DNA from: Daucus carota subsp. sativus
Taxonomy: Eukaryota; Streptophyta; Magnoliopsida; Apiales; Apiaceae
Reading direction: 5' to 3'
NCBI RefSeq assembly: GCF_001625215.2
Contig: NC_030384.2
Span: 26,586,527 to 26,650,526, forward strand
DNA length: 64,000 nucleotides
The notes under the pieces were generated by a model. That model ran no database searches, was not told where the DNA came from, and saw only the letters and a program-made list of their open reading frames with translations. Both the position numbers and the translations under genes were made by a program. This document shows, piece after piece, positions 2,120 to 43,943 of this stretch. Numbering within the stretch: the stretch's first letter is position 1; every line of letters begins with the position of its first letter.

Positions 2120-3217
2120 CTACAGTGTAGCAACAGAAGAATCTCTCTGAAACCTGCATACTTTGCAGACTGGAGAGTAAAGAGATGGGGTTTGGTACTT
2201 GTCCTCTCCTCCCATCATTGGCATGGGCACCCCTCTCTTCACAGGGCTCACATAACCAGCCCGATAAGTCTTTCCCAGGATTCCCTCGACGAGTTCTGAT
2301 AGATTAGTAAACCTGAATTGTGTTTCCAGGTGAGCAAAAGCATCATCTGATGGTAGCTGGTAGTTGTGAATCTTGTTTTCTTTTTCTCCTATGGGGGTCA
2401 CCTTCAGATCGATCTCCACTAGTCCATCAACAATGACTTTTACTGAGTTGGTTTCGTCTGTTCTTTCAATAACCACTTCTCTCTGTTCACCATTGATCCT
2501 CCATTCAGCTTCTCCATCAGTGGGGATGCTGACATCCTCCCCATCCCACTTGACAGTAAGAGACTCCACCTTGTCATCCCAGTTGGTAACTCTTTTAGCT
2601 GCAAGGACTAGAGTGTGGCTGTCGAACATGACTGAGAGAGCCTGAACCCATGTATAATCACGTGTCCTTCCTGTAGGCCGGCTGCCAATGAAATGTGCAT
2701 TGATCTGCAGATTGTTGTCTGAAACAACTGCAAAGTCGCTTCCCTTGGCTCCATGGAAGTAAAACATCACTCCATCACCGCCAACAAACCTAGGATCGTA
2801 GCACAACGAGCCAAATCCATCACATTTAGGTTTTCTATCTGTCAAATAAGTACAATTCATCAGCTTTCAGTACACAACTTATAGGACTATCATAAACTAC
2901 AAAGATCCAAGATAAATGTACTTACTCTTGCAAGTAGCTTCACACTTGCTACTGCAGTTAATGAAGCATCCCTTCCCCTTCTTGTCCTTAGGCTTCCTGT
3001 CAGGACACTGAGATGGACAGGTCAACGTCGTGTTGAAACATGCACTAGCCTTTGTCTTACACACAGCCCGAACCTGCGTTGTTCCTGGCAATGGCTTCTT
3101 GACGTCGTATTTGTTAGCAGGATCTTTACCACTACCCTGCCCCTGAGCAGTTGCACATTCAACAGATACAAAAACCAGAAGAATGGCCAGTAAAACGAAA
3201 GCCCTTTTCATATCCAT
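2120..3217 (-). CDS. Secreted root-cap / LEA-related protein, paralogue 1 (no Gly-Asn repeat)
   Basis: Two exons: 3217-2926 and 2838-2120. The intron (2925-2839, 87 bases) begins GTAAGT and ends CAG, splits a codon after its first base, and gives a 336-residue protein. Residues 1-24 are a hydrophobic signal peptide (AFVLLAILLVFVSV). A short GQGSGK linker leads to the family motif NKYD at about 35. A Cys-rich module with a glycosylatable NTT follows ([28 protein letters not shown]). Exon 2 is the Root_cap domain: [29 protein letters not shown], then a beta-rich region to the Cys-containing tail SLYSPVCKVC. The family includes maize root cap protein 1 and Arabidopsis 'LEA-related' proteins such as At5g54370 and At4g27400. 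They are secreted and expressed in the root tip; their biochemical role is unknown to me. The ATG is chosen because it opens the signal peptide; a second ATG lies two codons later. Confidence 0.9.
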
Positions 3218-3328
3218 CTGCTCTGTTTATTTGCCGTAAATGCACCTCCAAATGTTTGATCTATATTTCTACTTGTGTTTGATCTTATGTTATGAAGACA
3301 ATATGAATCTGCAGAAGGTTAAAAGGAG

Positions 3329-3420
3329 TTTATATAGTTGCATGGCAAGTAGCTAGGCCTTATTCCTTGCAATGTGGCTTCATTCTTGCAAAGGTAACTT
3401 CTGAGGTAATAAACCAGCAG
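3329..3420 (-). promoter_or_regulatory. Core and proximal promoter of root-cap paralogue 1
   Basis: A TATA box (CTATATAAA on the minus strand, 3337-3329) lies about 112 bases before the ATG. Directly upstream is TGCCATGCAA, an RY-like CATGCA element, and then a block containing AAGGCCTAGC. The same order of elements occurs before the other two paralogues. Confidence 0.65.
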
Positions 3421-3633
3421 AGAGCCAGCTACTTTTTACTTGTGCATGTGGCCTCTAGTTTTGACCAATTCAGTGTGTGACTCTGTGGAACTTGGTGTAT
3501 ATTTCTTGTAGATTAGCGTTGAGTTGATGAGAAGCAAAGAGTAGACAACTCTTTGGATCGAGATTGATGTCAAAATATATTTTATCTGATACTGTAGAAA
3601 ATAATTTGGATTCAGCATTGCCCCGTACTGAGT

Positions 3634-4101
3634 GGGCGTTTGGGAGCGGGACTTCTGCGCTTAAAAGCTCAGAAGCCCGCTTCCTCTAATCTGGTGGACC
3701 GTTTGGCAAAAACTGTGAAGGGCTCAATTATGGGGAAAAAAAGCTCTGAAAAGAAGCTATGATATGTAGCTTTTTTTTTACTCAACTTCTTTAATCAGCT
3801 TCTTTCTAACATAAAATCATACATTCGTTCCGTCCTATCAGGTTCTTTAGGTTATTTTTTAGCAAGCATTTTAAAATTCAAATTTAGATTATTCATGTAC
3901 AAATGATTTATTTATAAATTAATTTAAAATAATAATTTTCAGACTAACTTATAAGTTAAGTTATCCAAACACTTAAAAAATTATAAGTTACGGTATCCAA
4001 ACACTTGTAATAGTTTAAAAGTCCAGAATTACTTTTCACTTTTAATCAACTTTTTTACTTTAAGCAATAAGTCAATTCTTTTAAGCCCAGCCAAACGGCC
4101 C
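3634..4101. mobile_element. MITE-like element, 468 bp
   Basis: Imperfect terminal inverted repeats (GGGCGTTTGG at the left, GGGCCGTTTGG as the reverse complement of the right end) are flanked on both sides by CTGAGT (3628-3633 and 4102-4107), a probable target-site duplication. The interior is AT-rich and includes the repeated phrase TATCCAAACACTT. No coding capacity is seen. The superfamily is uncertain because the flanking repeat is only 6 bases. Confidence 0.6.
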
Positions 4102-6040
4102 CTGAGTCGATCTCATTCTCAGGCCATCAACACTCGAATCGATAAGATTTAATGCGCGTTAGATATTAATTGTAGCAGATGCATAGGACCAGAAATCCAT
4201 ATCACATGGGATTTTCACCGGAGGAACAAAAAACTGGGCTGGTCTTCAAAATTTATCGAAAATTAAATCAGTTTTACTTAATATTTTTGTAAGACTGCTT
4301 GGATATATGAAATGTAACAACATATGTACCGGTGTTGGTCCTTTATCACATCTCAAATAATAATATCTTAAATATCACTTCTAGAAAATATGATCCTGAA
4401 TATAATTTTATAACGTTACATCGTCTAATGTTTTTAAATTTTTTAAAAATGACAAAATCACCTCCTCATGCAGGGTTTACAATTTTTTTTTTTTGTCCAA
4501 AGCCACAGGAAAACAAACCTTAAGAATCCTATTAGACGATGTAACCTTGTTTCATTAATTTATTTATCTAGTGTCGAAAGTTCAAACAAAACAAAACTTA
4601 TATAAAATATCTTTTAAATGATGTATCATTTATCGTTTTATCGTTATAATTCTAACGCTATATGATATAGTATTTTAATATACTATTCGGGACCTTATTT
4701 TCACACGATATAGTGTTTTAATATAATTTTGAAACCTTATTTTCACATGATATAATATTTTAAAATATTCGGGACCTTATTTCGGGATATGTTATTCAGG
4801 ACATCTTCCAAATTAAATTGTGATATTTAGATCTTGTTCGGACATAGGCCGAAAACATTTGTTAGTGTATGCGTGGGCGTGAATTTGATTATGAACAAAG
4901 CTAGCTCATGACCGAGTATGTATAATGTGTAGTCTTATGCTTTGTTTCCAATCTAGCATGTCTATTATTCTGAATTTATGGTGGATTATAACATAATGGA
5001 TGTTCACACTTCACATTCGAGATATTTGTAGTTTTTCACGGAAAATATAATTCGATTTCCTTTTCCTTTTGACATCTAGTTCGGTTTGACCGGATGTTAA
5101 AAATTATAAAACCCAGGTATTGTGTGTATTTTTGAGTTGTGTATATAAGACAATATAAGTTTCTATTCTCTTAAATAACGATCATGCGTTCGAGTAACAC
5201 AAAATAAATTTTAATTTATCAAATTTCAGAACATTTTATTGTCAAACTTGTTTTAAGTGTTACTTGCAAAGCACATTTGGAAAAATATAAATAAATGTTA
5301 GGTAGGGTGTGGCCGGTAGTTTGTGCTAAACAATGAATTGATGAAAACCAGAAAAGTTGAATATCATGAAGGTGATTGTAAGTTGCAGTAATGTAGGTAG
5401 TTGCAGTTTTATAAACCACCTTGAAACTGTGAAAAATCTGATGATTGTGTGACAAGCAACTGCTGTTTCAAGTTACCTACTCATAATCTCATGTATTGTG
5501 CCATGTTATAAAATGCAGAGATATATAATATGGCACAGACCATATTGTAGCCTGTATCTATTTATATTTAAGCTTAATTAGTGCAAAAAGAAAGAAAGTC
5601 AAGTGCTCACTCCCGGTTTTCCGGGTCCTGGACAGGAGTTGGGCCTGCATTGAAAATGAAAAATAATGTCAAATTAGGTCCAAAACACAGGTGTACAGGC
5701 CCAGAAGAGAGGGAAGCTGCAGGTGGTTCACAAAAAAAATGCACAAGAATCTATTACAACTGATAAACTAGACATGGGCTATAAATCTAAATCAAAAGAG
5801 AACCAAGCACCTCCCATCCCATTTTCAGGTCCATTAAAACAACCCCAACTTTCAGTCCAGATATAGAACCAGGCCTTTACTTGTATTAGCTTTGCAGAAT
5901 TGTAGGAGGTTTCAGCTTGCAGTACTTAACATTGGTAGGAGTTTTGTCCGAAACTAATGAAAATATAAACAATTAATTAATAATTTTCTGCATCATAATT
6001 ACCTGGAATATTAAACTTTAAAGAAAATAGGCAGATGTTT
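4102..6040. other. Intergenic region, no gene recognised
   Basis: AT-rich sequence holding the short tandem repeat listed separately. Several small open frames here start on non-ATG codons or have no recognisable composition or homology. Confidence 0.5.
4664..4787. repeat. Three degenerate tandem repeats of about 42 bp
   Basis: The unit GATATAGTATTTTAATATA...GGGACCTTATTTTCACAC recurs three times with substitutions (starting near 4664, 4706 and 4749). It is noncoding. Confidence 0.6.
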
Positions 6041-6090
6041 CTGGCCTTTATTGCAATATTATTCAGAGGTTACATCACATGTTGCTGCAT
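6036..6090 (-). other. Conserved 3'-UTR block of root-cap paralogue 2, with AATAAA
   Basis: TTTCTGGCC(T/C)TTATT...ATTATTCAGA, followed by TACATCACAT, is also found below paralogue 3 (about 20490-20540). The minus strand here contains AATAAA (6052-6047), about 130 bases past the stop. Conservation plus position suggest 3'-UTR and poly(A) sequence. Confidence 0.5.
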
Positions 6091-6179
6091 TGCATTGCAT
6101 GCATGCTTGTTTACAACAGAAAAAGAAATTACTTACTGATCACTATCAGCTTGAAAATAAGCAAGTACTTAAATCAAAA

Positions 6180-8023
6180 TTACATAATAGAAAATGCAGC
6201 AGATGGTGCAGATTGTCTCTGAAACAAGCAAACCTTGCAGAGCGGAGAGTAAAGAGACGGAGTTCGATACTTGTCTTCCCCTCCCATTAGTGGCATCAGC
6301 ACTCCTCTCTTAACCGGACTGATGTAGTCTGTCCTATAAGTCTTTCCCAGAACTCCCTCTACGCGATCCGATAAGCTGAAAAACTTGAACTGCGTCTCCA
6401 GATGAGCAAAAGCATCGTCTGATGGTAACTGATAGTTGTGAACATTGTTCTCCTTTTCTCCAATCGGGGTCACCTTGACATCGATCTCCACGAGGCCATC
6501 GACACTTAGTTTAACCGTGTTGGTGTCGTCGGTTCTTTCAATGACCACTTCTTTTTGTTGGCTGTTGATCCTCCATTCGGCCTCTCCGTCGGTGGGGATA
6601 TTGACATCCTCCCCGTCCCACCTCACGATGAGGGACTCGACATTGTCATCCCATTTTGAGACTCTTTTGGCTGCGAGGACTAGAGTGTGGCTGTCGAACA
6701 TGACTGAGAGGGCCTGGACCCATGTGAAATCGCGGCGCCTTCCAATAGGCCGAGTGCCAATGAAGTGAGCATTGATCTGTAAATTGGTGTCTGAGACAAT
6801 AGCAAAGTCGCGTCCCTTGGCTCCGTGAAAGTAGAACATCACTCCATCACCGCCAACAAATCGAGGATCGTAGCACACTGAACCGTATCCATCGCAGTTA
6901 GGTTTTCTGTCTGCGGAACAAATTAAATTTATTAGGTCCCATCCACTGTAAGAAAAGCCGGGTATTTATTTAAGGTCAAATTCGTATGATATCATGTAAC
7001 TTAAAAGAACACAATTATAAAGAAATCGATGAGAGAAAAATATATGTGCTTACTTCTGCAGGTGGCTTCACATTTGGTATTGCAGTCGATGAAGCATCCC
7101 TTGTTTTTCTTGTTCTTGGGCTTCCTCTCAGGGCATTGAGATGGGCAAGTTAAGGTGGTGTTGTAACATGAGCCTTTACTTTTGCATACAGCTTGTTCCT
7201 TGCGTGAGCCTGGCTCGGGTTTCTTTACGTCATATTTGTTAGAAGCATCGTTGTTGCCGTTTTTGTTGTCGTCATTATCATTTCCGTTGTTGTTTTCATC
7301 ATCGTTGTTGTTGTCATTCCCGTCACCATTTCCATTTCCGTTGCCATCTCCATTCCCGTTTCCATTACCATTCCCATTGCCGTTTCCATTGCCACTACCA
7401 CTGTTGCCATTGCCATTCCCGTTGCCGTTGCCATTTCCATTGCCATTACCGTTCCCATTCCCATTGCCATTGCCGTTACCGTTCCCATTCCCATTGCCAT
7501 TGCCGTTACCATTCCCATTGCCATTACCATCGCCATCAAGTCCATTACCATTTCCGTTGCCATTACCGTTTCCATTTCCACTTCCACCATTTCCATTGCC
7601 ATTCCCATTTCCATTTCCACTTCCACCATTACCATTTCCATTACCATTACCGTTGCCATTACCACCATTACCATTTCCATTACCATTGCCATTCCCATTT
7701 CCACCGCCTCCATTCCCATTCCCGTTACCATTGCCATTCCCATTTCCACCGCCTCCATTCCCATTCCCGTTACCATTGCCATTCCCATTTCCGCTTCCCT
7801 CGTTGCCATTACCATTTCCATTCCCATTCCCGTTGCCACCGCTTACATTCTGGTCATCGCTTTGTACTTCTTCATTGCCACCAGCATTACTACTTCCATC
7901 AATCCCTGTCTCAGCATTTTGATCATCATAGTTCCCGCTTCCTTGACCTAAAACAGTGACGGCCTCCATGGCTACAAAAACTACAAGTATGCCTACCAAA
8001 ATGAATGCAGCTTTTCGAGCCAT
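6180..8023 (-). CDS. Secreted root-cap / LEA-related protein, paralogue 2, with long Gly-Asn repeat
   Basis: Two exons: 8023-7054 and 6910-6180. The intron (7053-6911) begins GTAAGC and ends CGCAG, at the same phase-1 position as in paralogue 1; the protein has 566 residues. The start is the ATG of [10 protein letters not shown]; an in-frame GTG four codons upstream is not used. Residues 1-26 form a signal peptide, 27-62 an acidic Asn/Asp-rich stretch, and about 63-261 a Gly-Asn dipeptide repeat that becomes Asp/Asn-rich at its end. The Cys module follows from NKYD at about 262 ([27 protein letters not shown]), then the Root_cap domain ([29 protein letters not shown]) ending [10 protein letters not shown]. 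The Cys positions and the core domain match paralogue 1, so the repeat is an insertion between the signal peptide and the Cys module. Arabidopsis At5g60530 is, from memory, a related Gly-Asn-rich member. Confidence 0.88.
7241..7837 (-). repeat. Gly-Asn / Asp-Asn coding minisatellite in paralogue 2
   Basis: A hexanucleotide-based coding repeat (GGN AAY) spans almost 200 codons. Gly is written with all four GGN codons and Asn with both AAY codons in irregular order. The 3' part changes to Asp/Asn. The open frames seen on the opposite strand and in the shifted frame are by-products of this repeat. Confidence 0.85.
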
Positions 8024-8126
8024 CTTGGTCGTCACTCAATATTATAAATGTGTATAGATGCTGTTTCTACTTGTGTATGAGTTATGTGTATGAAGAGGAT
8101 ATGAAAATGCAAAGGAATCAAAGGTG

Positions 8127-8239: not shown

Positions 8240-9601
8240 TACTCACTTATAAGTGTGCATGTTTCCTTCATATTGACTAAACAGATCTAGATTATATCCA
8301 ACTCAATACAAATTGTGTTGATTACAAGTAGCTAATCCTATTTAAGCTCCTAATATCTGGGGATTTCTGCATTTTGTTGATTACAGAGTCTGTTTCGTCG
8401 GTCTTGATGCAATTTTCATGTAACCCTAGGGATTTTTATTATTTTAAACAAATTCTAGGGAGTTCTAATTAGTGTTTTTTGCATGCCTCTGTGGGAAACT
8501 AAGAAGATAAAGCAAAAACCCTATGCACTATCCTCATATAAATTGTTTTCTTCTTTATTCGAGGCGGCCTCCGTATTTTTCAAGTAATTAAATAATATTC
8601 ATTTTTCATACAATTCTATCATGCAAAAACCCAAAAGTTTATATAAGATTTTCTGGCAATAAAATAGAGCTGAAGTATATATCAAAAAGTGATACAACGT
8701 GAAGACTTGCTGTAAAGCTTGCTGACTTGATCTGCATTGTAATATTCCTACGACTGACCTTACATACACAGAATGCATAATATGCATGCATGTTAAGTAT
8801 AAATGGTTTAGTTACGTGCGCAGAAGGAAACTAGATACACAGATGTGAAGAAATCAGATGAGAGCTTTCCGACTTTTCTCATCATTGAATCTATCCTCAT
8901 TGCTGGCAACTAAATGATGCTTCTTTATCCAGGATTTATCATTTTGACATTGTGTATATTTGTAAAAAGATGCTTGTTTTTCCTATATCTCAAGTAAAGT
9001 TGTAAATGGTTGTTCACACTTGCCAATCAATAATGGAGGCAACGCCTAGAAATTTTTTACATTTACACATTATTATTTTAATTACATATAAGAAAATTTT
9101 AATATTTTCCATTTACAAAAAAATGAATTTTTTTTAAAAAATATACATTTATATTCTTTTTCTCATGAAAAGAGAGTAATTTTTTTATTGCATATTTACA
9201 CGAGGATAAGTAATCTTTGGGTCCGATTGACTTATGAAAGAGCATAATTCGAAATCGATCCAAATCGATCGATCTTAAAAGAAATCATCCAAAAAATTGA
9301 ATTTTCAATTTTCTTTTTAACATCTTGGTTTGATTTCAATTTTGATAATTAGAAAATTGAAATTTTTCGATTTCAAGTTCTAACCGAAATAGCTGTTAAC
9401 ACATATATATTACAAATAAGAGTTTTATAATTTGATTCCAATGTTTTTCATAATCATACTCCACTTTTATCTCCGTCCTTATTTTCTTATAACCAGTTAA
9501 TAATCAATAATATCTTCTAAACGATAAATAATTTCTTTTTCTCATTAAATAAGCCATTTTTTTCATAAAAATTTAAAAAGAGTAACACCTAGAATCAATC
9601 A
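8240..9601. other. Intergenic region upstream of root-cap paralogue 2, nothing recognised
   Basis: AT-rich sequence up to the left end of the Helitron at 9602. No gene, RNA or clear transposon terminus was seen. Confidence 0.5.
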
Positions 9602-10252
9602 TCAATATACTTATATAAAGGAGAAGCGAGGGACGTGTAGGTGGCGCCTCTCACATCGCTCCGTTCTATTTTTCTAATTTTCAGGAATTTTTAGAAGATA
9701 AATATAAAAAATTAAAACTATCTTTTTTAGTTTCAGGTATATTAGAAGCAAGTTTCAGAATCTGCTTTTGTTTCAAATTATTTATGGAATACAGTTAGGG
9801 CTGTTCACGAACCGAGCCGAGCCGAGTATTGACCGAACCGAGCCGAGCTTTAATTTTTTTTTCTGACGAGCCGAGCCGAGCATTTTAATCGAACAAAAAT
9901 TGTGTTTAAGCTCGGCTCGTTAACTAACGAGCCGAACACGAGCTTGTTCGCGAACAAATACGAGCCGAGCCGAGCCGAGTCGAGCCAGAAAAAAAATAAG
10001 GACAAACCGCTAGTTGACTCTTAAAATAGCTAACCTAATAATTTCAATTTTTTTTGAAACTTTGTTTATATCACTAAAATGTATATATGTTAACATCCAT
10101 ACGGTTGGATCGGTAAATTTTTTTTTTTTTTTTAAATATTGAAACACTAAATTAGGATTAAACACTAGTTAGTGGTACTAGTCAAACTTCTACTTGCCTG
10201 TTAAAAACCAAACAAAATTATTATTTCCTAAAATTTTGTTTACATCACTAAA

Positions 10253-10289
<37 letters not shown>

Positions 10290-10293
10290 TATA
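10253..10293. repeat. (TA)n microsatellite, left flank of TA-flanked element A
   Basis: A nearly pure TA tract with one G interruption, ending where element A begins. Confidence 0.9.
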
Positions 10294-10739
10294 GGGATAG
10301 GATCAAATAAAAACTTTTTTAAGTTATAAACTTACAAACTTTTTTTTATTCTTCCATGGTGTTAATCCTTAGTTATAAAAAGTATCCATGTTGAAAATTC
10401 TTGAAAAAACATCACAATTTTTAAAAATAACGAATAAATAAATCGTACATTCAACACATTAATAACTGGGGTTCAACATAGGGTGTAGAACACTAATTAT
10501 CATTGTGTTGAATATATCTAAAAAGATGTTTAAACTATACCTCTGGGACGGGTAGGGTCTAGAAACATAAATATTAGTTATATAACACGTTTACCTTAGT
10601 TCTTACATTTAAAAATTAGTTTATGTACTTCTCCACCACTATTTTAATCGATGTTCAACAAAATATGTTAAAAAAATGTTGAACTCAAATTATATATGTG
10701 TTGAACACAGAAAGTTTGTAAGTTTGTACCAGAACCCAC

Positions 10740-10742
<3 letters not shown>
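10294..10742. mobile_element. TA-microsatellite-flanked inverted-repeat element A (449 bp)
   Basis: The ends are GGGATAGGATC and, as the reverse complement of the right end, GGGGTGGGTTC. Matching subterminal motifs follow (AACTTACAAACTT near both ends). Both outside borders are (TA)n tracts. No coding capacity is seen; the interior has several tracts containing 'GTTGAA' / 'TTCAAC'. Confidence 0.6.

Positions 10743-10810
<68 letters not shown>
10743..10810. repeat. (TA)n microsatellite joining elements A and B
   Basis: 34 TA units, essentially pure. It is the shared border of two different inverted-repeat elements. Confidence 0.95.
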
Positions 10811-10813
<3 letters not shown>

Positions 10814-11052
10814 GGCTGTTATACAGCCACCGTTGGATAGGGAACCACCAAATCTCAGCCACTGGATGAGAAGGACTCCCCGCAATGAAACATTGCAGGG
10901 ACTTAAGTACCCGCAATGAAACATTGCGGGGTCTTTGGTACCCGCAATGAAACATTGTGGGAAACTTTGTATTTCCTTCGTGTCAAAACTACCCCTCAAA
11001 TTTCTTCTCTATTTTATTTATAATCTTTACTTTTGATTCAAATAAATCAAAG

Positions 11053-11272
11053 AATGAAATGGGGGAAGGAGATAGAGTAATTTTGTTGTAACTGGTAGGT
11101 AAAAAACATTAATTACGGTCCCCGCAATGAAACATTGCGGGTACCAATACTCCCCGCAATGTTTCATTGCGGGGTACTTTTACTCCCCGCAATGACACAT
11201 TGCGGGGATCGTAATTAATGTATTCACCTACCAGTTACAACAAAATTACTCTATCTCCTTCCCCATTTCATT
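11053..11272. repeat. Long inverted repeat (hairpin) with about 90-bp arms inside element B
   Basis: The left arm (from TGAAATGGGGGAAGGAGA to the palindrome at 11120-11141) is nearly the exact reverse complement of the right arm (palindrome at 11185-11207 to about 11272). Another palindrome copy sits at the centre (11152-11174). Confidence 0.9.
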
Positions 11273-12007
11273 TTTTGAATTTAATTCATTGTATTTTTGC
11301 ATAATATTATTTTATCATTAATTTAATTCATTATGTTTTTGTTTGATATTATTTTATTATGATTCGAAATCATTTGAATTTTTAAAAACTTAAATAAATA
11401 TTAATTAAATTTTTAAGTTTTTTTCTTGAAATTATTTTATTATAATTCGAAATCATTTGATTTATTATTAAAATTATATTATATTATTGATTAAGTTATA
11501 TTTTAAATTTAATTTTAAATTTTTTGGTATTTTTTATTATTATTCGAAATCATATGAATTATTATTAAAATTAAAGTATATTATTAATTATATTATATTA
11601 TTAATTATATTATATTATTAATTTAATTTCTTTTATGAAACTCTTTTATTTATTCGAAATCATTTGAGCTAATATTAAAATCAAAAAATATTTAATTATT
11701 TATATTATTAATCAAATTAAATTATTTTGTTATTAATATAAAACTGAATTTTTATAACTACAAACTTTAAATAAATATATAGCAGAAAAACATTCTTATT
11801 CATAATGTCAAATTAATAAGAAATAAAATTAAGTTACATTATCAATTTAAATATACAATAAAATTTATTTATTATTGATTTTTCTTCAAAGGTTATATAT
11901 CTTCCTAATGGACTGGTAGGAAGGAAATTTCGATTGTCAAACTGTCATTACAATTTGTCTTAGAACTGTAAGGTACCATGTTCGAATCATGATATGTGTG
12001 TTTTGGA

Positions 12008-12608
12008 TAGGGATGACAAACGGGTCGGTCGAAACGGGTTTCGTAAAAACCAAACCCGAACCCGAACCCGAAAAACCCGAACTATGTAAACCCGAACTCG
12101 GCGGGTTTTATTCAGGTTCGGGTTTACCCGAAACCCGAAAAATATAATTATTTAGAAAAATTGAAAATTCAAAAATTCAAACAATTTAAAATGAACTACA
12201 GAGAAATCGATGAGCTGCAATGTCTGCTCATAAATTATTAATAAACATCAAATAATATGATAGTAATACCAAACAATACATACATGTTCTTTGGGAACAA
12301 GCCAACAACAGTCGAGAGCAGCAAATCGGACAATGAATTAATCCATTCATTACAGTTTAAGCACATTGTAATTTCCCCTCCCTGAAATATTTTCTCCATA
12401 TATATGTACATATTACTAATAAATATTAATAATATATATATATATACACGGGTCGGGTTCGAAACAGTATACCATAAACCCGAACCCGACCCGAAAATAA
12501 TTCGGGTTTAAATATTAAACATGAACCCGAAATATTCGAGTTCGGTAAAGTCCAATCGGGTCAGCACGGATCGGGTATCCATCGGTTCGGTACAAATTGC
12601 CATCCCTA
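12008..12608. mobile_element. hAT-type MITE with 8-bp TSD, rich in CCCGAACCCG repeats (601 bp)
   Basis: The ends are TAGGGATGACAA and TTGCCATCCCTA, with the perfect duplication GTTTTGGA on both sides (12000-12007, 12609-12616). CCCGAACCCG-type repeats cluster near both ends. There is no coding capacity. It is nested in element B. Confidence 0.85.
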
Positions 12609-13619
12609 GTTTTGGAGTATAACATACTCCCCGCAATGATTCATTGCGGGGTGTCTTTTAAAAAAAATACTCCCCGCAATGAATCATTGCGGGGTATCTT
12701 TTTAAAAAAAAACATTTCCGCAATGACTCATGGAGAGTGTTTTTTGCAACAAAAACTATCCACCTCAACAAACCACCTATAAATGAAGATTTAACACCCT
12801 GCAATGAATCATTGCGGGGTACGTAATCCCCACAATGTTTCATTGCGGGTATGAAAATTGTGTAAACTATCCCCACTATACTTCATTGCGGGGAGGATAA
12901 TATTACTTATTTTATTCAAAATATTTGAAAAAGTCTAATAAATTGTAAGAATTTATTCGACTTTAGCCAGAAAATATTAATATAGTTGTTCTTACTAATA
13001 TTTAACTAATTTAGGTAACATTTATTAATAATTTAGATATTTTTATTTGATTTGAATTTGTTTGAGTATATTTGAAAACACTACTTGTACATATGAGAAT
13101 TTGAAAAAGTTAATAATTTGTCAAAAATTATTAAATTCAAACATGTGTTCGATATATTTAAGAAACAAACAATAATATTTAAATAAATAAAATTATCCGT
13201 AACTAAAAGACATAAAAAAGTCAATAAGATAAAAACATAAAGGAATTAGATAGAAAATTATTTCTACATTATACTAAGAAAAATAAATTTTCTCAGTATT
13301 TCTGACCTTGACAATATTTTAAATTTTATTTAATAATGTTAAATGATAACAATTTAAATTGTACAAGGCATATGATATGTGAAGGGAGGGGTAAAAGTGT
13401 CCAGAGAATCAAAAAGGACTCCCCGCAATGAAACATTGCGGGGACTTGTATACCCGCAATGATTCATTGCGCGGTCTTTCATACCCGCAATGTTTCATTG
13501 CGGGGTTGCAATGTTTCATTGCGGGGAGACTTTTTTTTAACCGTAGGATCACAGAATGGAGGGATGTGATTTGGTGGCTGGAAACCGGTCCCTATCCACC
13601 GGTGGCTGTGGACCGGTTT

Positions 13620-13621
<2 letters not shown>

Positions 13622-13685
<64 letters not shown>
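13622..13685. repeat. (TA)n microsatellite joining elements B and C
   Basis: Pure TA tract of about 64 bases that forms the right border of element B and the left border of element C. Confidence 0.95.
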
Positions 13686-13687
<2 letters not shown>

Positions 13688-16600
13688 GAAGGTTCAAAAG
13701 AGACCGTAGCTTATCGAGAGAATGGGGAGACCACATCTGTAGTCGTTGATTTGATTATGATCGGAGGGCTAAGAAATTTGAGTTATTAATTAATAATACT
13801 TACAGACATTTCCGTTTTTATATCAAAAGGGTAGTCTTGGGAAACCAATATTGAGAAAATTAATAGCTAGATACCAATCAATGCAAGAATATGTATATCA
13901 ATCAATGCAAATCTCTTGCCTAATATATCATTTTATAACTGATTAATCAATATATAGAAATTTTGTATCAGTTTTGGAAAGTAAGTAAAGAGATGATCCT
14001 ATACAAATAAAATCATTATTATATGTTTTTACAGCATCTATTTCACAGATGTGATAGAGTTTCTGATAACAAATATCCATGAAAACCTCTTTCAAACTTT
14101 TGCAATCCATTATATGTGTTTTTCTATGGAACACGTATTTAATTATCAGAACAATATTAATTCTGCTTAAGAGGTATAATGATGAATGACCACATATAGT
14201 AAATGTTGGAAAAGTATTGTTGCTGTTGGGAGGCAACCAGCATGCAAGAAACAGAAGCAAAGCATGAAAAGAGGATGTGGAGGATTTGTGTTGGAAAACG
14301 TTTCATGATTTTAGGTTGTATTTTAACTAGGATATGAGACAAACTAGACTAATGATCTTAATTTTGCTTCATAGTTTTTTAGGGTTCTTGTGGTTTATAC
14401 TATGAGTATAGATATTCTTTTGTCTGATCATCCTTAGTGAAGTCATATGTATGTTAAAAGCTTGATGGCCTATTTTTGACATGTACTCAAGAATATTTTA
14501 GTTACAATGACTTAGATATATAAACATACTTCTTATTTTAGTTGCGTTATTTTGGAGTTTAGAACAAGATTATAATCACTTAAAGGAATCTATAAAAAAA
14601 GACTAAGTAAAACTTAAAGCAAAATATAATTGAACACTGAATAGAATTTTAAATTTAATGTGATAAAGAAATATAAATTTTCAAAAGTTAGAGAAAAAAT
14701 CTGAAGAAAAAAAATTAATAAATCTTCCTCAAAATACCTTAAAGAATCTTTGATTTTACATAAAAGTAAATTCATTATTAATATATATTGGTGTCAGAAC
14801 AAGATCATATTATAGAACACTTAAAAAAATCTATAAAAACCCAAGTAAACTTTAGAGCAAAATAGAATAGAACACTGAATAGAATTTTAAATTTAATGTG
14901 ACAAGGAAATATAAAATTTTCAAAAGTTAGAAAAAAGTCTGAAGAAAACAAATTATAAAAAAGAAAATTAATAAATTTTCCTCAAAATATCTTAAAAGAT
15001 CTCTGAGTTAACATTAAAGTAAACTCAAAGATTTATCAGAATTTCTAACAAAACATTTAACTGAATTTTTTTTATTATGAGAGCTATCATATTTAAACAG
15101 CTTATAAAATATTTTTTGATATTTTTTTTATGTATTTGAGGTTTTTAAAATTGTTACTAAATTTGAAATAAGAACTTTACTAATAATATAAAATTAAATA
15201 TTGATTATAGTACAATAATTAAATTTGAATAAAAGATTTCACAATCAAAGAGTAATTAATTTAGATTAATAACTACTTAAAAATTTTAATATAATAATTA
15301 AAAGAATCTTGTTATATTTTTTTAAGATTCTACTAATCGTCCGGCAAAAAAAAAAGATTCCACTAATCGATGAATAATATTTTTAGTTAATTAATATCAG
15401 TAAGATATAATTAATATTTTTTTGAGATATTTTTTTAAGATTCTACTAATGGATGAATAATATTCTTTAATTTTCTTTCATATAATTTTTTTTCTTCAGA
15501 TTAGTTTTTTAAGGTGTTTTGAGGAAAATTCTTTAATTTTCTTTCATATATTTTTTTTCTTCAGATTTGTTCTCCAATTTTTGAAAATTTTATATTTTAT
15601 CATCACATTAAATTTAAAATTCTATTCAGTGTTCTGTTATGCTTTTCCTTAAATCTCATTTACTGTTTTTTATAAATTCTTTTAAGTGTTCTATAATATG
15701 ATCTTGTTCTATTATCAATATATATAAAGAATCTATTTACTTCTATGGATGTAAACTCAAAGATTCTTTAAGATATTTAGAGGAAGATTCATTAATTTTC
15801 TTTCGTATAATTTTTTTTCTTAAGATTTGTTTTCTAACTTTTGAAAATTTTATATTTTCCTTCTCACATTAAATTTAAAATTCTATTTTGCTTTAAATTT
15901 TACTTAGTGTTATTATAAATTATTTAAGTGTTCTATAATATAACACTTAAAAAAGTTAATTCTGCTAATGATCTTAATTCTCTGCTTCATAGTTTTTTAG
16001 GGTTCTTGCTTCATAAAAGATTTCACAATCAAAGAGTAATTAATTTAGATTAATAACTACTTAAAAATTTTAATATAATAATTAAAAGAATCTTGTTATA
16101 TTTTTTTAAGATTCTACTAATCGATGAATAATATTTTTAATTAATTAATATCAGTAAGATATAATTAATATTTTTTTTAAGATTCTATTAATGGATGAAT
16201 AATATTCTTTAATTTTCTTTCATATAATTTTTTTTTCTTCATATTTGTTCTTTAAGGTGTTTTGAGGAAAATTCTTTAATTTTCTTTCATATAATTTTTA
16301 TTTCTTCAGATTTGTTCTCCAACTTTTGAAAATTTTATATTTTCTCATCACATTAAATTTAAAATTCTATTCAGTGTTCTGTTATGTTTTTTCTTAAATC
16401 TCATTTAGTGTTTTCTATAAATTTTTTTAAGTGTTCTATAATATGATCTTGTTTAATTACCAATATATATTAAGAATATATTTACTTTTATGGATGTAAG
16501 ATTCTTTAAGATATTTAGAAGAAGATTCATTAATTTTCTTTCTTATAATTTTTTTCTTCAGATTTGTTTTCTAACTTTTGAAAATTTTATATTTTCCTTC

Positions 16601-17849
16601 TCACATTAAATTTAAAATTCTATTTTGCTTTAAGTTTTACTTAGTGTTTTTTTATAAATTCTTTTAAGTGTTCTTCTTGTTCTAAAGTAATGAAATTATA
16701 AATGATAAGTGTGTTTATATATTTTGTTTTTGACGAAAAGATGGGAATATTCTCGAGTAATGGTCAAAAGTATAAATAGATCATTGTGCTTTCACATACA
16801 TATGACTTCACTTAGACGAATGATCAAACAAAAGAGAATTTATACTGATTGTATAATCATCGTTGCATAAATTCTCTTGTAACCAAGAACCCACATGAAT
16901 ATTAAGATTACACAAGAGATCAAGAATAGCTAAACTTCCTTCAATATTCAAACCTTCAAATAATCTTATGTCGTTACCATATATATTTCAGGACTACAAA
17001 TAAACTGAACATCTTTTTGCTATCCACCCTTCACAATTCTCAGTACACTACACCAATTCTGGTCAATTACGACGGATATCTTACGACGGAGCTTCCTATA
17101 TGTAACATATATACCGAGCAGGAACACCTAAAGCATGCACTAATAATAATTGTGCAGATCATCTTGAAGGAGTTGGTTGAACTATCAAAATCTAATCTTT
17201 ACGCCTTCTCGCTCTCACAGTAGTAGTTTTCAATGCTCTTTGAAATCTGATGATGTGTCGACCATTCTCAAACCACTTTTTGTATAGTTAGGTTTTTGGA
17301 GACATTGGCTTGACAGAAATCTATTTCCTCTTGATAGACCCTCAACTTCAATACCACTACAACCAGAAAAATATAAAAATCACAAAAATACGAAGAAATA
17401 CCACTACATCACTGCAACACGATGAAACACTTTATAGAACAGCCTTACCTAATTGCAGAACACAGTATAGACCATCGGCTGAGACTCATCAAACTTATAA
17501 TATTCTCCATTGTTGTCTATCATAATTTTTTTTGGAGCTCTCTGTTTATGGAGATGTTTTAGGACGTGTATACAACGAGACATACTTTGATAATATATTT
17601 CTAGCCTATTCAAATCCAATCTGGTTGCCATATTTACAAAGATATGGTTGTATCAATCAAAACCCTAAATTTATGTTGTTTGCCTTATCAGAGGATTCAC
17701 GCGTGCTCTTAAATTTACATATCCTTGATCTTTATACTAATCACAAGAATGCCACTATCAGTTATTAATTATAATTTTAATAGATCAACGGTCTTAGATG
17801 AGGTCTCCCGATTCTCTTGATAAGCATAGTCTCTCTGGAACTCAACTCA
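13686..17849. mobile_element. TA-microsatellite-flanked inverted-repeat element C (4.2 kb)
   Basis: The left end has GGGAAGGTTC, AGAGACC, GCTTATCGAGAGAAT and GGGAGACC. The right end read as its reverse complement has GAGTTGAGTTC, AGAGACT, GCTTATCAAGAGAAT and GGGAGACC, so the terminal 50-60 bp are inverted repeats. Both outside borders are TA tracts. The interior is a set of AT-rich direct and inverted repeats (14549-16690) and a stretch at about 17000-17780 with several open frames of no recognised family, possibly captured sequence. Confidence 0.62.
14549..16690. repeat. Complex of direct and inverted AT-rich repeats inside element C
   Basis: A roughly 240-bp unit (with AGAACAAGAT, ACACTGAATAGAATTTTAAA, AAAGTTAGA, TCTGAAGAAAA) occurs twice forward (14549-14790, 14800-15050). 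It occurs about four times in inverted orientation (near 15470-15720, 15740-15950, 16200-16470, 16500-16690). Separately, the block from about 15225 is duplicated almost exactly about 790 bases later, at about 16014. The repeats could fold into large hairpins. Confidence 0.8.
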
Positions 17850-19193
17850 TATATATATATATTATGTTGAATTCTGAGTCCAATAACATATATAAATTAT
17901 AAAAAAACCCCGAAAATATTACATTTTTTCGAGTTTTAACGAGCCGAACTCGAGCCGAACGAGCTCGAGCCGAGCTCGAGCCGAACATACTAAAAGCTCG
18001 GCTCGAGCTCGTTTTCTTAACGAACAATTTTTTGTGTTCGAGCTCGAGCTCGTTAACTTAATGAGCCGAGTTGAACGAGCTCTTAACGAGCCGAGCTCGA
18101 GCTTGTTCGCGAACAGCTCGGTTCGTTAAACAGCCCTAAATACAGTAGCTCGAAAGTTTTAATCTGATTTTGTTTCAGATTATTTAATTATGGAAAAGAG
18201 TAGCACACAAGTCTCTCTGCACCTATAAATGCCCCTATAGATTGTAGGATTTTGGATCATCTAAACACAACCTCCTCTCTCTCAATACCACAAGTTTACA
18301 ACCCTACTTCTCTCTGGTGATAGTATTCTTGCTCGATTTCTAACTCGAAGGTGACGTTGTTCTGCAACGATAAGTTCTCTTGCTCGATTTCTAACTCGGA
18401 GGTGACGTTCTTCTACAACGATAAGGGAAGGCTGTTTATACAATATTAAAAAAATAAAGTTTGTTGCAAGCAAAGGTAGCTATAAACCGCTATATTGGAG
18501 TCAACAAATCCAAACACGAGAAAAGAATATAGTCTTGACATGATATTGATGGTTGAAATCAATAAATTAACTATCAGTGATGTATGTTTGTTGGTTATTC
18601 TTTTATAATATTTGTTTTGTTCATCGGACATGCTTGTTGTTGTTAATTTATACAGGAAAAAAATTATACATTATCTGTTTGCTCCGTTCAAGCAACTTTT
18701 AAGTAAAAGTTGTTTATACAGTATTAAAAAATAAAGGTTGTTACAAACAAGGGTAGTTATACACCGCTATCTCACCGATTTAAGTTAGATGTTTTTGTGC
18801 ACAATCAATCCAAAAAAATTGGAGGAAGGTGACAATGTAAGAACATAATTACCTTTAAAAAAAACAAATAAAATTAAGATTCGTCATGTTTTAAATTGTT
18901 AATTACGTGTATAAATTTATTTTCATTTTTTCACCATGAATTATAGTCCAATTTCGCAATTTTATATTTGGTATTGGTATTACATCAAGATTTATATATT
19001 ATAAATTTATTTTATCCTACAAATATTTATTAATTTTAAAATATTAATATACTTTTTATGGACTTTGCCAAAAAATCATAAAAGAATATACTTTTCATAA
19101 ACAGCCACAAAATTATTTTATTTTACAAATATTAATATTGAATCATTAATATAATTTTTATAGAGTCGACGCAACGCGCGGATTCTCAACTAG

Positions 19194-20607: not shown

Positions 20608-22214
20608 TTACATAGCAGCTGCAAGAGCAGATTGTCTGTGGAACAAGCAGACTCTGCAGACAGGAGAGTAGAGAGATGGAGTCTGGTACTTGTCCTCCCC
20701 ACCCATCATTGGCATGGCCACCCCTCTCTTCACAGGACTCACATAATCCGGCCTGAATGTCTTCCCCAGAACTCCCTCCACATTCTCCGATAAATCGAAA
20801 AACTTGAACTGTGTCTCCAGATGAGCAAATGCATCATCAGATGGCAGCTGGTAGTTGTGCACCTTGTTTTCCTTTTCTTTTATTGGAGTCACCTTCACAT
20901 CCACCTCCAAAAGGCCAGATACACTGACTTTCACCGTGTTGGTGTCATCAGTTCTTTCGACAATCACTTCTCTGGCTCCGCTGTTGAGCCTCAATTCGGC
21001 TTCTCCATCAGTGGGGATGGTGAGGGTCTGGCTGTTCCAGGTCACGGTCAGGGACTCGACGTTGTCATTCCAGTGAGTAACTCTTTTTGCTGCGAGGACT
21101 AGAGTGTGGGAATCAAACATGATTGAAAGAGCTTGAACCCATGTGTAGTCACGCGTTCTGCCTGAGGGTCGAGTGCCTATGAAGTGAGCATTGATCTGTA
21201 AATTGGTGTCTGAGACAATAGCAAAGTCGCTTCCCTTGGCTCCGTGAAAATAGAACATCACTCCATCACCACCCACGAATCTAGGATCGTAGCACAGAGA
21301 GCCGTATCCATCACATTTAGGCTTTCTATCTACACATCGAAAAAGTGGACTTGTGTTTTAGTATGTCTGCAATTTTTATGTAAAGGCATTTGAGTAAGTG
21401 ATAAAAAGATTAACTTACACTTGCACACGGCTTCGCACTTGCTATTGCAGTTGATGAAGCACCCCTTTTGCTTCTTATTCTTCTTGGGCTTCCTCTCGGG
21501 GCATTCAGATGGACAGGTCAGAGTCGTATTGTAACATGCGCCTCTGGTTTTGCAAAGAGCTCGTTGCTGCCCTGTCCCTGCTACTGGTGCCTTCATGTCG
21601 TATTTGTTTGCATCTGCCACTTGCCCATTGCCATTTCCATTGCCATTCCCGTTTCCGTTGCCATTACCATTCCCATTCCCATTACCATTACCATTACCAT
21701 TGCCGTTCCCATTACCATTACCATTACTATTGACATTACCATTGCCATTTCCATTTCCGTTTCCATTACCATTTCCATTCCCACTACCATTATTGCTGTT
21801 CCCATTGCCGTTGCCGTTGCCATTGCCACTTCCACTATTGTTATTCCCATTGCCGTTGCCATTGCCATTTCCACCGCCATTCCCATTTCCATTACCATTT
21901 CCATTGCCATTGCCATTGCCATTGCCATTGCCATTGCCATTGCCTCCGGTGTTAACATTATTGTTACCATTGCCATTTCCATTTCCATTTCCATTACCAC
22001 CTCCAGTATTGCCATTACCATTGTTGTTACCATTACCGCTACCAACACTGCCGTTGCCATTCTTGTTACCATTACCATTGCCATTTCCATTACCACTACC
22101 AACATTGCCGTTGCCATTGTTGTTACCGTTGCCTTGACCTACAACAATGGCGACTTCCATGGACACAAAAACAACAAGTATAGCCGCCAAAATGTAAGCC
22201 CTTCTTTTATCCAT
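20608..22214 (-). CDS. Secreted root-cap / LEA-related protein, paralogue 3, with Gly-Asn repeat
   Basis: Two exons: 22214-21419 and 21329-20608. The intron (21418-21330) begins GTAAGT and ends TGTAG and has the same phase-1 position as in its paralogues; the protein has 505 residues. Residues 1-26 are the signal peptide (AYILAAILVVFVSMEVAIVV), and about 27-198 a nearly pure Gly-Asn repeat with Ser, Val and Asn-Asn interruptions. NKYD at about 203 starts the Cys module ([27 protein letters not shown]). Exon 2 is the Root_cap domain ([29 protein letters not shown]) ending SLYSPVCRVC. Repeat length and interruptions differ from paralogue 2, so the tract has evolved separately since duplication. 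The gene is intact. A secreted role in the root tip is inferred from the family. Confidence 0.9.
21621..22136 (-). repeat. Gly-Asn coding minisatellite in paralogue 3
   Basis: About 170 codons of GGN AAY repeats with irregular synonymous codons. The long open frames on the plus strand here follow from the repeat and are not genes. Confidence 0.85.

Positions 22215-37487: not shown

Positions 37488-37520
<33 letters not shown>
37488..37520. repeat. (TA)n microsatellite
   Basis: A pure TA tract without a recognisable inverted-repeat element on either side. Confidence 0.9.
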
Positions 37521-37525
<5 letters not shown>

Positions 37526-40094: not shown

Positions 40095-40369
40095 TAGGGC
40101 CGGCAATATCAGACACGACCCGAACCCGACCCGAACCCGACCCAAACTCGTAACCCGATTTACTGAGACAAAATCCGAAAGTGACCCGAAAATCACCCGT
40201 TTTGACACGAAATGGACCCGACATGACCCGAAATTCTAATTTTATTTCTAATAACTTCAATTTTCAGTTTTATTCAATTTTAAGTGATTTTAGCTTGACC
40301 CGAAATCGACTCGAAATTGACCCGATTGCTGACACGAACACGACCCGTTACCCGAAACTGCCACCCCTA
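40095..40369. mobile_element. hAT-type MITE with 8-bp TSD, rich in GACCCGAACCCG (275 bp)
   Basis: Starts TAGGGCCGGCAAT and ends CTGCCACCCCTA. The perfect duplication GGTATATG lies on both sides (40087-40094, 40370-40377). The interior is dominated by ACCCGAA / GACCCG repeats, as in the MITE at 12008-12608. Confidence 0.85.
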
Positions 40370-41171
40370 GGTATATGTATGATAATATTGCATTGCCTGT
40401 CATAGGAGTATAGAGGTTGTTTCCGTGCTGGCAAGAGTATGGAGGTTGTTTCCGTAATGATTCCGTCTTATTGGTGTCCGTAATGATTCCGTTTTTCGTC
40501 TTACTAAAGCCTATCATTACTTGGAAAATTAAACTCAGAAAGAAAAATAAATTGTGAGCATCTTTAAAAGGAGAAAATAAGGGGTGGGGATGGTAGTCTT
40601 GACATTGATGATTTAAGTCTGAAAAAAATGATGGGAAGTAACAGGGAGTTTCTTGCAAAAAAAGCTGAGAATGTGAAAGAAAATGGGGTAGGACAGAAGC
40701 AACAGTTAAATGAGGGAGAGTATTAATTGGTTGAGGGTAGGGTTGAATCATGGCTGGCTGGGGGCAATCATACAAGTAAAGATTGCAGAACAACATGTGA
40801 ATGGGGATAACTTAAGCCCCACCATCTTCAACAATCTTCTTGTTTTTGGCAAGTCGTTACAGTTGTGTCTGTGTCATCTCTAACAAATTTAGGAAAAAAA
40901 GTTACTTTTGTAAAGTCATTTATGATTTTGCATTTCTTTTCTACCCCAAACTCATTGTTTTCTTACTTTATTCATGACTAGCTTTCGAGTCATGTACGGA
41001 TTTTGAAAATATATTTTTATATTTTAATTAATATTTATATAATGATTTAATGAATTTCATGATATTAATATTAATATCTTATTTATAAGTCAAGACTTAA
41101 CATGACTTGTATTTAACATGCATATTTACATCAATAAAAAATTTAACAAATTTCACCGTATTTATATACAA

Positions 41172-41176
<5 letters not shown>
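40370..41176. other. Intergenic region, nothing firm
   Basis: Contains a small repeated phrase (GTATGGAGGTTGTTTCCGTA-like, twice at about 40410-40460). The open frame on the minus strand here has no recognisable family. Confidence 0.4.

Positions 41177-41210
<34 letters not shown>
41177..41210. repeat. (TA)n microsatellite, left flank of element D
   Basis: Pure TA tract ending at the first base of element D. Confidence 0.9.
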
Positions 41211-41213
<3 letters not shown>

Positions 41214-41638
41214 CAAAGTTCTATGTAGTCCACATATTTACTGTAGTACCGTAGACCACGTATGTTCTGCAACAATAGAATGACATAAAAACATTGCAAA
41301 ATGTGTTATTTTGCAAATCATGTTCTATAAACATCATTATTTTGTTAAAATTTTTGACAATCCTAAACATCCTACTACAAATTAAATAGTGAAAAACACA
41401 TTATTCTGCAAAACATGTTAAGTTTGCAGAACATATTTACATGTTACAGAACATATGTGTTTTATTTGTCAAACATAAATGATTTTCAATATTTTTTATG
41501 AAATAGTGATATTTATAGAATGTATTTCACAAAATAACAAGTTTCATACATTTTGCAATGTTTTTATGTCATTTCATAGTTGCAGAACATACGTGGTCTA
41601 CGGTACTACACTAAATATGTGGACTACATGGAACTTAA

Positions 41639-41641
<3 letters not shown>
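41211..41641. mobile_element. TA-microsatellite-flanked inverted-repeat element D (431 bp)
   Basis: The arms are about 95 bp and nearly identical. Left: AAGTTCTATGTAGTCCACAT, then GTAGTACCGTAGACCACGTA, then TGTTCTGCAAC. The right end as its reverse complement: AAGTTCCATGTAGTCCACAT, then the same two phrases. The terminal 11 bases (GAACAAAGTTC / GAGTTAAGTTC) resemble those of elements A and C. Both borders are (TA)n. The centre is AT-rich with repeated 'GCAAAACATGTT / GCAGAACATAT' motifs and no ORF. Confidence 0.8.

Positions 41642-41730
<89 letters not shown>
41642..41730. repeat. (TA)n microsatellite, right flank of element D
   Basis: About 44 pure TA units, the longest in the window, starting where element D ends. 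Confidence 0.95.
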
Positions 41731-41733
<3 letters not shown>

Positions 41734-42331
41734 TGTATAATTCAAGACTTAGCATGACTAAGGGCTCATTTGTTTAGTTCTAGATGGAGCTTAATGATAC
41801 TTAGCCCATCAATTTCTCTTATTCAACTTATTTGTTTTTTTTGCTAAAATTGGCTGATCCAATCTTATAATTACTTAGGCGTTTATTTACAAAATCTTGC
41901 ATCGCACGTTCATACGCTTGTAGATGTCCACTCACTTCACACACATCTTAAAAAGAAATTGTGGTAAATTTATTTCATACATACGTACATATAGTTATTA
42001 TATTTTCTATCAATAATCCGGATTTTTGATGTTCTACAAATTTTCAAATAATTTTATTAAATGACTAAGTAAATGAAAGGATTTGAGGAATTAATTCTTT
42101 AATATTTTTGTTTATTATAAAATTATAAAATATCATGTAGACATCGTGCACACAATCGAGATATATTAATAATACAGATTTGTCAAATAATTCCCAATTT
42201 TATGATTTTGTAGTTGGACTTTGCTGTTTAGAATCTTTTGATTGCGGGAAAATGTGAAATAAAACAAATTATAATTATTAAAAAAGGAATAAAATAAGTT
42301 TTAAAGATACTGATTGATGAAAGAGTGCTTA
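41731..42331. other. Intergenic AT-rich region, nothing recognised
   Basis: No gene or element boundary was recognised. Confidence 0.45.
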
Positions 42332-42345
42332 TCTGCCTAAGAATT

Positions 42346-43171
42346 TTTTTTATTTTTTATTTGTCAAAATTTAGAGCGGATTTCATTAATACGAAAGAGA
42401 CTCAATTGGGACAAACCCCCAACTCATCATGCAACCAGGTTGAAAACAAATAAACGAGCTATATAATTAGCCGTTTTATTTCCAGATTGCTTAACTAACT
42501 GAATACAAGTAGTCTGAAAATTAAAAATAAAGATGATGGTTTCTTGAGTAATCCAACCTGCATCTCTATCGAAAACAGTAGTTTCACAATTAACCCCCAC
42601 ATTAATTTCATGGATAGTGCAATGTTGAGAAGACTCAGTTGTAAAAACTGAGTTGAGAGGTCTCATATTATGAACAAAATATATTTTGTGAGAAGTGAGC
42701 ACATGCGATTTTTACTACTGTCTCAACGGACCCCAGCTATATACCTGCTAGACACTAGCTATAAACCTGCCGAAAATGTTGTTATTCCGAAATCTCCGGA
42801 TCTCCCAATACACCGTAAAATTCATTTTCAATACATAGAGTGAGACACATCGTACAAAGCGGGACACTCAAACACACATATAATAACTCATATAGAAGAC
42901 AACGAAAATATCCAAATGAGTTTTCAGAATTTTGTCGAACAAAACTCAATTTTATTGATAAAGCAAACAAAGAGAATTGTAGACAAAAAATTAAAAAGAA
43001 GAGAAGAGGTGTTGTGTAGATGAAGAAGGGGCGGCTAGAGATTGAGATGGGATGAAAGAACATAAGAATAGAGATGGGTAGAAGGGGTGGAGAAAAAGAT
43101 GGAAGCGACGATAAAGATGGAACGGTCGACTCTCCTAACACACCCTCTTATCTTAAATATTAAAAAAAAAA
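42346..43171 (-). mobile_element. Truncated non-LTR retrotransposon (LINE) on the minus strand
   Basis: The minus strand ends in an A-rich tail (42362-42346). The insert is flanked by a 14-bp near-perfect duplication (TATCTGCCTAAGAA at 42332-42345, TATCTGTCTAAGAA at 43172-43185). The minus-strand ORF 42702-42427 ends with a motif like the LINE RNase H C-terminus (QLVKQSGNKTANYIARL). Only a 3' fragment is present, and the 5' half resembles nothing I know. Confidence 0.6.
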
Positions 43172-43442
43172 TATCTGTCTAAGAAGTTAAGTGGTAAGCG
43201 TTTGAAAACTTTAATTTGGAGAGAAACAAGATACATGTAAGCGGTCGTTTTGTTGTATGACACGAGGAATCAAGCACGGGTATGAAATTAGTCAATTCAT
43301 ACATACCCATATTTCAAACCCCCACATTATGAATTTTTGAAACTCTAAAAGGTGGGTATGAGTATCATTTTAAATTTTCTTTTTTTTTTTCCGAAAAACA
43401 TTAATAATAACAAAAAATATTTAAATGTACAAATAAATGTTA

Positions 43443-43696
43443 CTCCCTCCGTCCCACTTCTTTTGTCTTATTTGATTTTTTGTGGTCAAATTGACCAAAT
43501 TTTGACTGATAATAACTAATTATTCTCACATGATTTTTAAATATCACAAAATTCATCTTAAAATAGAACAAAGATAGATTTTAGTGATATATTTTTTGTA
43601 TTTTTTTAATCACTTAATATATGTAAATTTCAGTTAAAATTTAGTCAATCCGACCACAAAAAGTCAAACAAGACAAAAGAATTGGGACGAAGGGAG
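43443..43696. mobile_element. Stowaway-like MITE
   Basis: Starts CTCCCTCCGTCCCACTTCTT and ends GGGACGAAGGGAG, flanked by TA on both sides. The two halves are long inverted repeats (TTTTGTCTT..., AAGACAAAAG). Confidence 0.88.
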
Positions 43697-43943
43697 TATT
43701 ATTAATAATAAAAAAATTTATAATTTTTTATTTAATAAAATAATTTAATTTAATGAATAACATGATATTAGTTTAAATTAAATATATTCATTCCAACACT
43801 CAACCAAACACATGATATCAAAAATGATACTTTAACCTCATACCACCTTAACCGGATTTTTAATTCCAACCTGAAACCGCTCCGCCAACCAAACGACGCC
43901 TAAAAGGGATATGCTAAAGTTAATTATTATGATCAGTTGTTAA

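Follow-up and report, generated by a model that had tools for sequence, protein, structure and literature searches.

Here we describe a chain of three transposable elements, A, B and C, in a window of 64,000 nucleotides (the whole stretch of DNA analysed) from the genome of carrot, Daucus carota subsp. sativus (contig NC_030384.2, positions 26,586,527 to 26,650,526). Each element is bounded by (TA)n microsatellites, and neighbours share the tract between them, (TA)34 for A and B and (TA)32 for B and C (Table 1). This much the initial annotation had recognised: the elements are real, their coordinates were right to a base or two, and tests of tracts and ends as well as genomic copies place their boundaries precisely at (TA)n. 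What it overlooked is that the entire chain sits within a miniature inverted-repeat transposable element (MITE) of hAT type. The sequence TAGGGCTGTT at 9796 has its complement ending at 18138, and both sides bear a perfect 8-bp duplication, AATACAGT; the assignment to the hAT superfamily rests on these two features, an 8-bp target site duplication (TSD) and short terminal inverted repeats (TIRs). Elements A and B are non-autonomous, and in C no coding capacity was found in eight scanned frames. A fourth element, D, lies outside the chain and beyond the original observation; it has the same layout, with a TA tract of 35 bp on its left and one of 89 bp on its right. We consider it very probable that A, B and C are three different Mutator-like element (MULE)-type transposons, inserted successively into one (TA)n inside the hAT-type MITE.

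Table 1. Features of the array, its host and element D (positions in the window)
Feature	Position	Strand	Remarks
Left 8-bp TSD of host hAT	9788..9795	.	AATACAGT
Host hAT-type MITE	9796..18138	+	TIR TAGGGCTGTT..CGAACCGAGC; split by A-B-C; own DNA 9796-10252 and 17863-18138, plus TA
(TA)n tract left of A	10253..10293	.	single G at 10271; remnant of the host hAT's own TA tract
Element A, 449-bp non-autonomous MULE	10294..10742	+	GGGATAGG...CCCACCCC; from end comparison and genomic copies
(TA)34 tract common to A and B	10743..10810	.	34 units, pure TA
Element B, non-autonomous MULE	10811..13621	+	many CCCCGCAATG-type palindromes; probable deletion relative of a FAR1/MULE-transposase MULE
Second hAT MITE, nested in B	12008..12608	+	TSD GTTTTGGA at 12000-12007 and 12609-12616
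(TA)32 tract common to B and C	13622..13685	.	32 units, pure TA
Element C, 4.16 kb	13686..17849	+	imperfect TIRs; interior with large direct and inverted repeats
Short TA tract right of C	17849..17862	.	7 units; opposite end of the host hAT's TA tract
Right 8-bp TSD of host hAT	18139..18146	.	AATACAGT
Element D, full fold-back MULE MITE	41211-41641 (41176..41730 with tracts)	+	TA tracts 41176-41210 and 41642-41730

The host hAT itself interrupts a dispersed repeat of older date, ATATACTTATATAAAGGAGAAGCGAGGG..., of which 9601-9686 and 18498-18600 are the two parts, and which is, to judge from its motif, perhaps a Helitron end. A second copy of this repeat in the window, at about 43943-44657, runs uninterrupted across the insertion point and has one copy of the target, AATATAGT, with one base different; as such, it provides a paralogous empty site for the host hAT at about 44046-44088.

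All copies were searched for in the window's own genome (441,086,747 bases, 11 contigs). The left half of the host hAT gave 541 first-look candidates, from which the best-scoring 40, the window included, were scored; the 39 copies outside the window were taken either with most of the element (20) or as short stretches at the TA tract (19). A perfect 8-bp TSD is present in 16 of the 19 copies readable at both ends, 20 having been fetched nearly whole. At the point where the window carries its chain, 37 of these best 40 of 541 copies are empty and hold (TA)n (36 by script, L146 by eye). The empty sites read CATCACTAA-(TA)n-TATGTTGAATTC, with CATTACTAA in place of CATCACTAA in L146, and their tracts measure about 12-88 bp, with a median of 25 (the 36 scripted copies). 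These two flanks are also present in the window, with A-B-C between them. Three of the 40 copies are occupied, independently and by differing families or combinations: an A-family element lies in L122, a C-like one (GGGTCGAGTTCCAGAGAGACC) in L142, and A-B-C in the window, the insertions in L122 and L142 being seen from the near end, where they begin in the TA tract of the hAT. The fact that empty copies carry (TA)n at this very point shows that the microsatellite belongs to the hAT family, and the outer microsatellite thus most likely preceded the insertions.

The initial annotation had offered two readings of the chain, repeated insertion into TA microsatellites or microsatellites made by the elements, and the empty copies support the first, directly so at the outer site. 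The second supposes that the elements carry or create TA tracts, (TA)n being a part of the element and not its target. The inner tracts (64 and 68 bp) are indeed longer than the outer right one (14 bp), and insertions of TAFT in maize are said to expand TA, as cited in PMC5907723. However, the outer tracts are unlikely to have this origin, since empty hAT copies already carry (TA)n without any element, and ordinary 10-bp duplications without a TA tract are found in 4 of 46 copies of A and in 21 of 42 copies of D. For the outer tract this explanation is largely refuted, and altogether we judge it very improbable. The inner tracts, in turn, may derive from the first tract by splitting, duplication or expansion.

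The tracts of the array are not due to chance, as first-order Markov simulation of the window, repeated 50 times, gave a TA tract of 15 bp at most and a mean of 0.86 tracts of at least 10 bp per simulation. Furthermore, when the two ends of each element were compared with 400 random pairs of window positions in an end-anchored test, random pairs did as well or better in 3 cases for A and in none for B, C and D, so that all four have the terminal inverted repeats by which the SaTar and MiM elements discussed below are recognised. A solitary TA tract at 37488-37521 has no paired ends clearly over the null (best score 15; null 90% 14, maximum 27).

How strictly the elements keep to microsatellites differs between families. 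Counted by place, there are 46 copies of A, including the window's own; L032 is dropped because it coincides with L037. Of the 46, 36 have TA on both sides, 4 have TA on one side, 4 have a clean 10-bp non-TA TSD (L010, L024, L035 and L086), and 2 show another arrangement. A TA run of at least 8 adjoins the left end of B in 16 of 24 short loci and is missing from the other 8, and the full second copy of B (L116) has TA at both ends, as do both full copies of C. For D, where the 42 copies comprise the one in the window and also two that are partial or diverged, an exact 10-bp TSD (21 copies) is more frequent than TA on both sides (8), with TA on one side in 3 and other arrangements in 10; most copies of D therefore do not end at microsatellites. 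The expectation of the initial annotation that copies begin and end at (TA)n accordingly holds well for A, less so for B, and not for D, and the targeting of TA is a preference, strong for A, rather than an absolute rule. Beside D, a 24-bp direct repeat (41084-41107 and 41736-41759, 22/24 identical) brackets the element together with its TA tracts. Directly to its right lies 41762-43900, GGGCTCATTTG...CAAACGACGCC, with TAA on both sides, which we take by eye and from its motifs to be PIF/Harbinger-like, with a Stowaway-like MITE presumably inside it at about 43452-43699.

A survey of 90 fetched loci with matches yielded seven array loci besides the window: D-A (L007, L041 and L077), A-A (L032/L037, which are one place, and L083), A-A-B (L015, its B cut short), and D-D (L075, joined partly via an AG tract). 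Arrays of mixed families linked by microsatellites, as in SaTar and MiM, are thus found here as well, and in neither the window array nor the other seven does one element from A to D interrupt another. A chain of three elements, which the initial annotation thought unusual, is not: besides these seven, more than 300 such clusters are described for guayule (PMC5907723). These copies also bear on whether A-B-C might be one composite transposon moving as a unit, an idea for which the contiguity of the elements and their shared tracts speak, and which we find scarcely credible: A, B and C occur alone or in other combinations, L089 (a copy of C) and L116 (a copy of B) having no A-D neighbours in the fetched stretch, and these stand-alone copies argue against the composite, which we reject. 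The left flanks of L015 and L116 have a dispersed repeat in common (108 bp, 89%), followed by A in one and B in the other; the right flank of L015 is lost, and this pair was not used as empty-site evidence.

Successive insertion would proceed as follows. Each insertion would split a TA tract, leaving the new element with (TA)n on both sides, and the leftover tract would serve as the target for the next element, giving an end-to-end array of the SaTar/MiM kind. Insertion was most likely driven by a transposase, presumably supplied in trans and acting by cut-and-paste, and the inner tracts may later have grown or slipped. The outer repeat probably came first and was followed by the host hAT; A, B and C would have come next, in whichever order, and the nested hAT after B. 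Alternatively, circular intermediates with TA filler might have entered the TA tracts by homologous recombination, instead of direct insertion by a transposase. This model was proposed in the SaTar paper, where the flanks in guayule are often unlike the products of cut-and-paste (PMC5907723), and in the present copies the two TA tracts beside an insertion often differ in length, while a TSD is unreadable in pure TA. However, unequal tracts also come from slippage, and copies of A and D with the same ends also give the ordinary 10-bp duplications described above, which a transposase alone explains; recombination of circles is an unlikely but not a negligible alternative.

Of the four elements, only B could be connected to a relative with a MULE-domain transposase, as known from the Mutator superfamily. 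Its places were listed from 46 of 204 matches, forming 35 clusters, and set against 150 scored matches to PF10551 in the genome. Among the matches listed, 5 of the 35 clusters lie within 6 kb of a PF10551 match, compared to 0.14 expected, and in 4 of these 5 the transposase domain lies 1268-1342 bp away from the shared B segment. Transposase-bearing relatives of B are located at C7:24738053, C9:23156779, C2:24728492 and C2:23274778. The same proximity test gave 1/40 for A, 0/38 for D and 0/39 for the host hAT, that is, no excess for A or D. A frame of 445 aa (C7, in L158) has FAR1 and MULE domains. The neighbouring L157, separated at its near end by 1.25 kb from that MULE domain, is collinear with B: 551 bp of it match B, unbroken over the point where the B of the window holds its nested hAT, which is missing from L116 as well. 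Based on the PF10551 excess, the FAR1/MULE frame and the collinear DNA, B is most plausibly a deletion relative of an autonomous MULE of FAR1 type, which may be similar to Jittery. The motif CCCCGCAATGAAACATTGCGGGG (at most 3 mismatches) occurs at 13 places in B, between 10878 and 13505, and is present too in the transposase-bearing relative L157, and these places are possibly transposase binding sites. Pfam searches of two frames of B and eight of C returned no transposase or MULE domain, and nothing over the cut-off.

Element C is represented by a second full copy, L089, which is 97.2% identical over the full length and has TA at both ends with different flanks. Three diverged relatives (L090, L065, and L091, which is the same place as L062) have at their left either (TA)n or just TATATA, and L063 and L064 match parts of C only, with no clear end. 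From this behaviour, from the GGGGAGGTTCAAMAGAGACC-type end common to its relatives, and from a weak similarity of its ends to those of D and A, we infer that C is a MULE. Within C, 14395-16856 includes two direct copies of one segment (15229-15934 and 16013-16674, 89%) as well as long inverted arms (76%).

Several observations must be weighed against successive insertion of three MULEs into one microsatellite. The terminal repeat of A is short and imperfect, and the repeats of C are imperfect as well; free local alignment of the ends scored 21 for A and 35 for C, whereas the best of 300 random pairs reached 53 and 47, respectively, and a partner scan without gaps found B and D and missed A and C. 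Given these weak end tests, the reality of A and C as elements rests on their genomic copies. For C, moreover, there is neither a copy with a 10-bp TSD nor a link to a transposase, and its similarity to the other elements amounts to two pairs, C_R/D_R (1/400 random pairs as good) and A_L/C_L (6/400), uncorrected for the 24 cross-element pairs, with at least 35/400 random pairs as good for each of the other 22. The C7 transposase-bearing relative of B (L104) has no (TA)n adjoining its left end. Outside TA, one copy of D (L057, 501-928) lies inside a diverged relative of D (about 70% identical), with a near-perfect 10-bp duplication of its target, TGTTCTACAA/TATTCTACAA, which indicates that outside microsatellites these elements can interrupt each other. 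Finally, all copies come from one genome, and the empty hAT sites are paralogous and not orthologous alleles.

The rice element Micron (Akagi 2001, through citing papers), which the initial annotation named as the closest precedent, is reportedly a short element in (TA)n and as such an apt comparison, with the SaTar arrays and MuTAnT being closer. In the literature, Micron is counted as a non-autonomous MULE (PMC5907723), and Micron-type MITEs are covered in 207 plants (PMC12550479). A categorically new TA-targeting family was considered for the carrot elements and rejected, as PMC5907723, PMC4486113, PMC8449440 and PMC8227079 already describe this behaviour. MULE arrays that target TA and stack are known, and the carrot array is another instance. 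A close match is SaTar, described from guayule and rice by Valdes Franco et al. (2018; PMC5907723), the sole paper found in a literature search on such arrays that was narrow in scope. Like the elements studied here, SaTars comprise different non-autonomous MULE families with (TA)n flanks, placed end to end without mutual interruption in arrays, with some 10-bp TSDs and with autonomous MULE relatives. Their non-autonomous families measure about 0.4-1.9 kb, whereas C has 4.16 kb in which no coding sequence was found, and while the present array lies in the TA tract of a hAT MITE, the part of that paper available describes no hAT host. MuTAnT of Medicago truncatula (PMC4486113) is likewise a MULE with terminal GGGG/CCCC. 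Most of its copies are flanked by (TA)n, and the few that lie outside TA have a TSD; the element folds back as D does and has an autonomous relative with a MULE-type transposase. It differs, in a comparison by description, in being a single family and in having a 9-bp TSD instead of 10 bp.

In carrot itself, 15 families of MiMs with 2156 copies in TA stretches and usually poorly conserved TIRs are described (PMC8227079), with putative autonomous Mutators for three of them. In a comparison by description and not by family sequence, the accessible part of this paper mentions neither chains nor a hAT landing site, and it still calls unclear how elements are directed to microsatellites. The Ac-mMITEs of pineapple (PMC8449440) also have (TA)n targets, 9/10-bp TSDs outside TA, and non-nested clusters formed by adjacent insertion, which account for 46.1% of full-length copies. 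However, these are two families with similar TIRs, whereas A, B and C differ more from one another.

Elsewhere in the window, a further hAT-type MITE lies at 40095-40369 (TAGGGCCGGCAAT...GCCACCCCTA, 8-bp duplication GGTATATG). Root-cap (PF06830) genes cluster at 2120-8035 and 20608-22214, and two of them adjoin Gly-Asn-rich frames of low complexity. For the kelch protein, the closest named relatives among the 120 matches listed belong to various eudicots (77-82% identity), with asterids among the best and carrot absent from the list. Rfam gave nothing at threshold, and pattern scans of collections of viral contigs and genome contigs gave no match, as expected for plant DNA.

What, then, could the host hAT contribute? 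A hAT MITE with an internal (TA)n might disperse ready landing sites throughout the genome, which TA-targeting MULEs then colonise, a proposal we put forward tentatively, as plausible but somewhat short of even odds. A narrow literature search for hATs or MITEs that contain a microsatellite and show nested insertion found no paper, and the modest novelty of the present locus would lie in this spreading of TA landing sites by a hAT MITE. If this proposal is true, one class of transposon builds habitat for another. Moreover, a high-copy hAT MITE with a TA tract at a fixed place offers, within one genome, matched empty sites by the dozen together with some that are occupied, by which the length of the TA tract at empty versus occupied sites, and any preference of insertion for length, become directly measurable.

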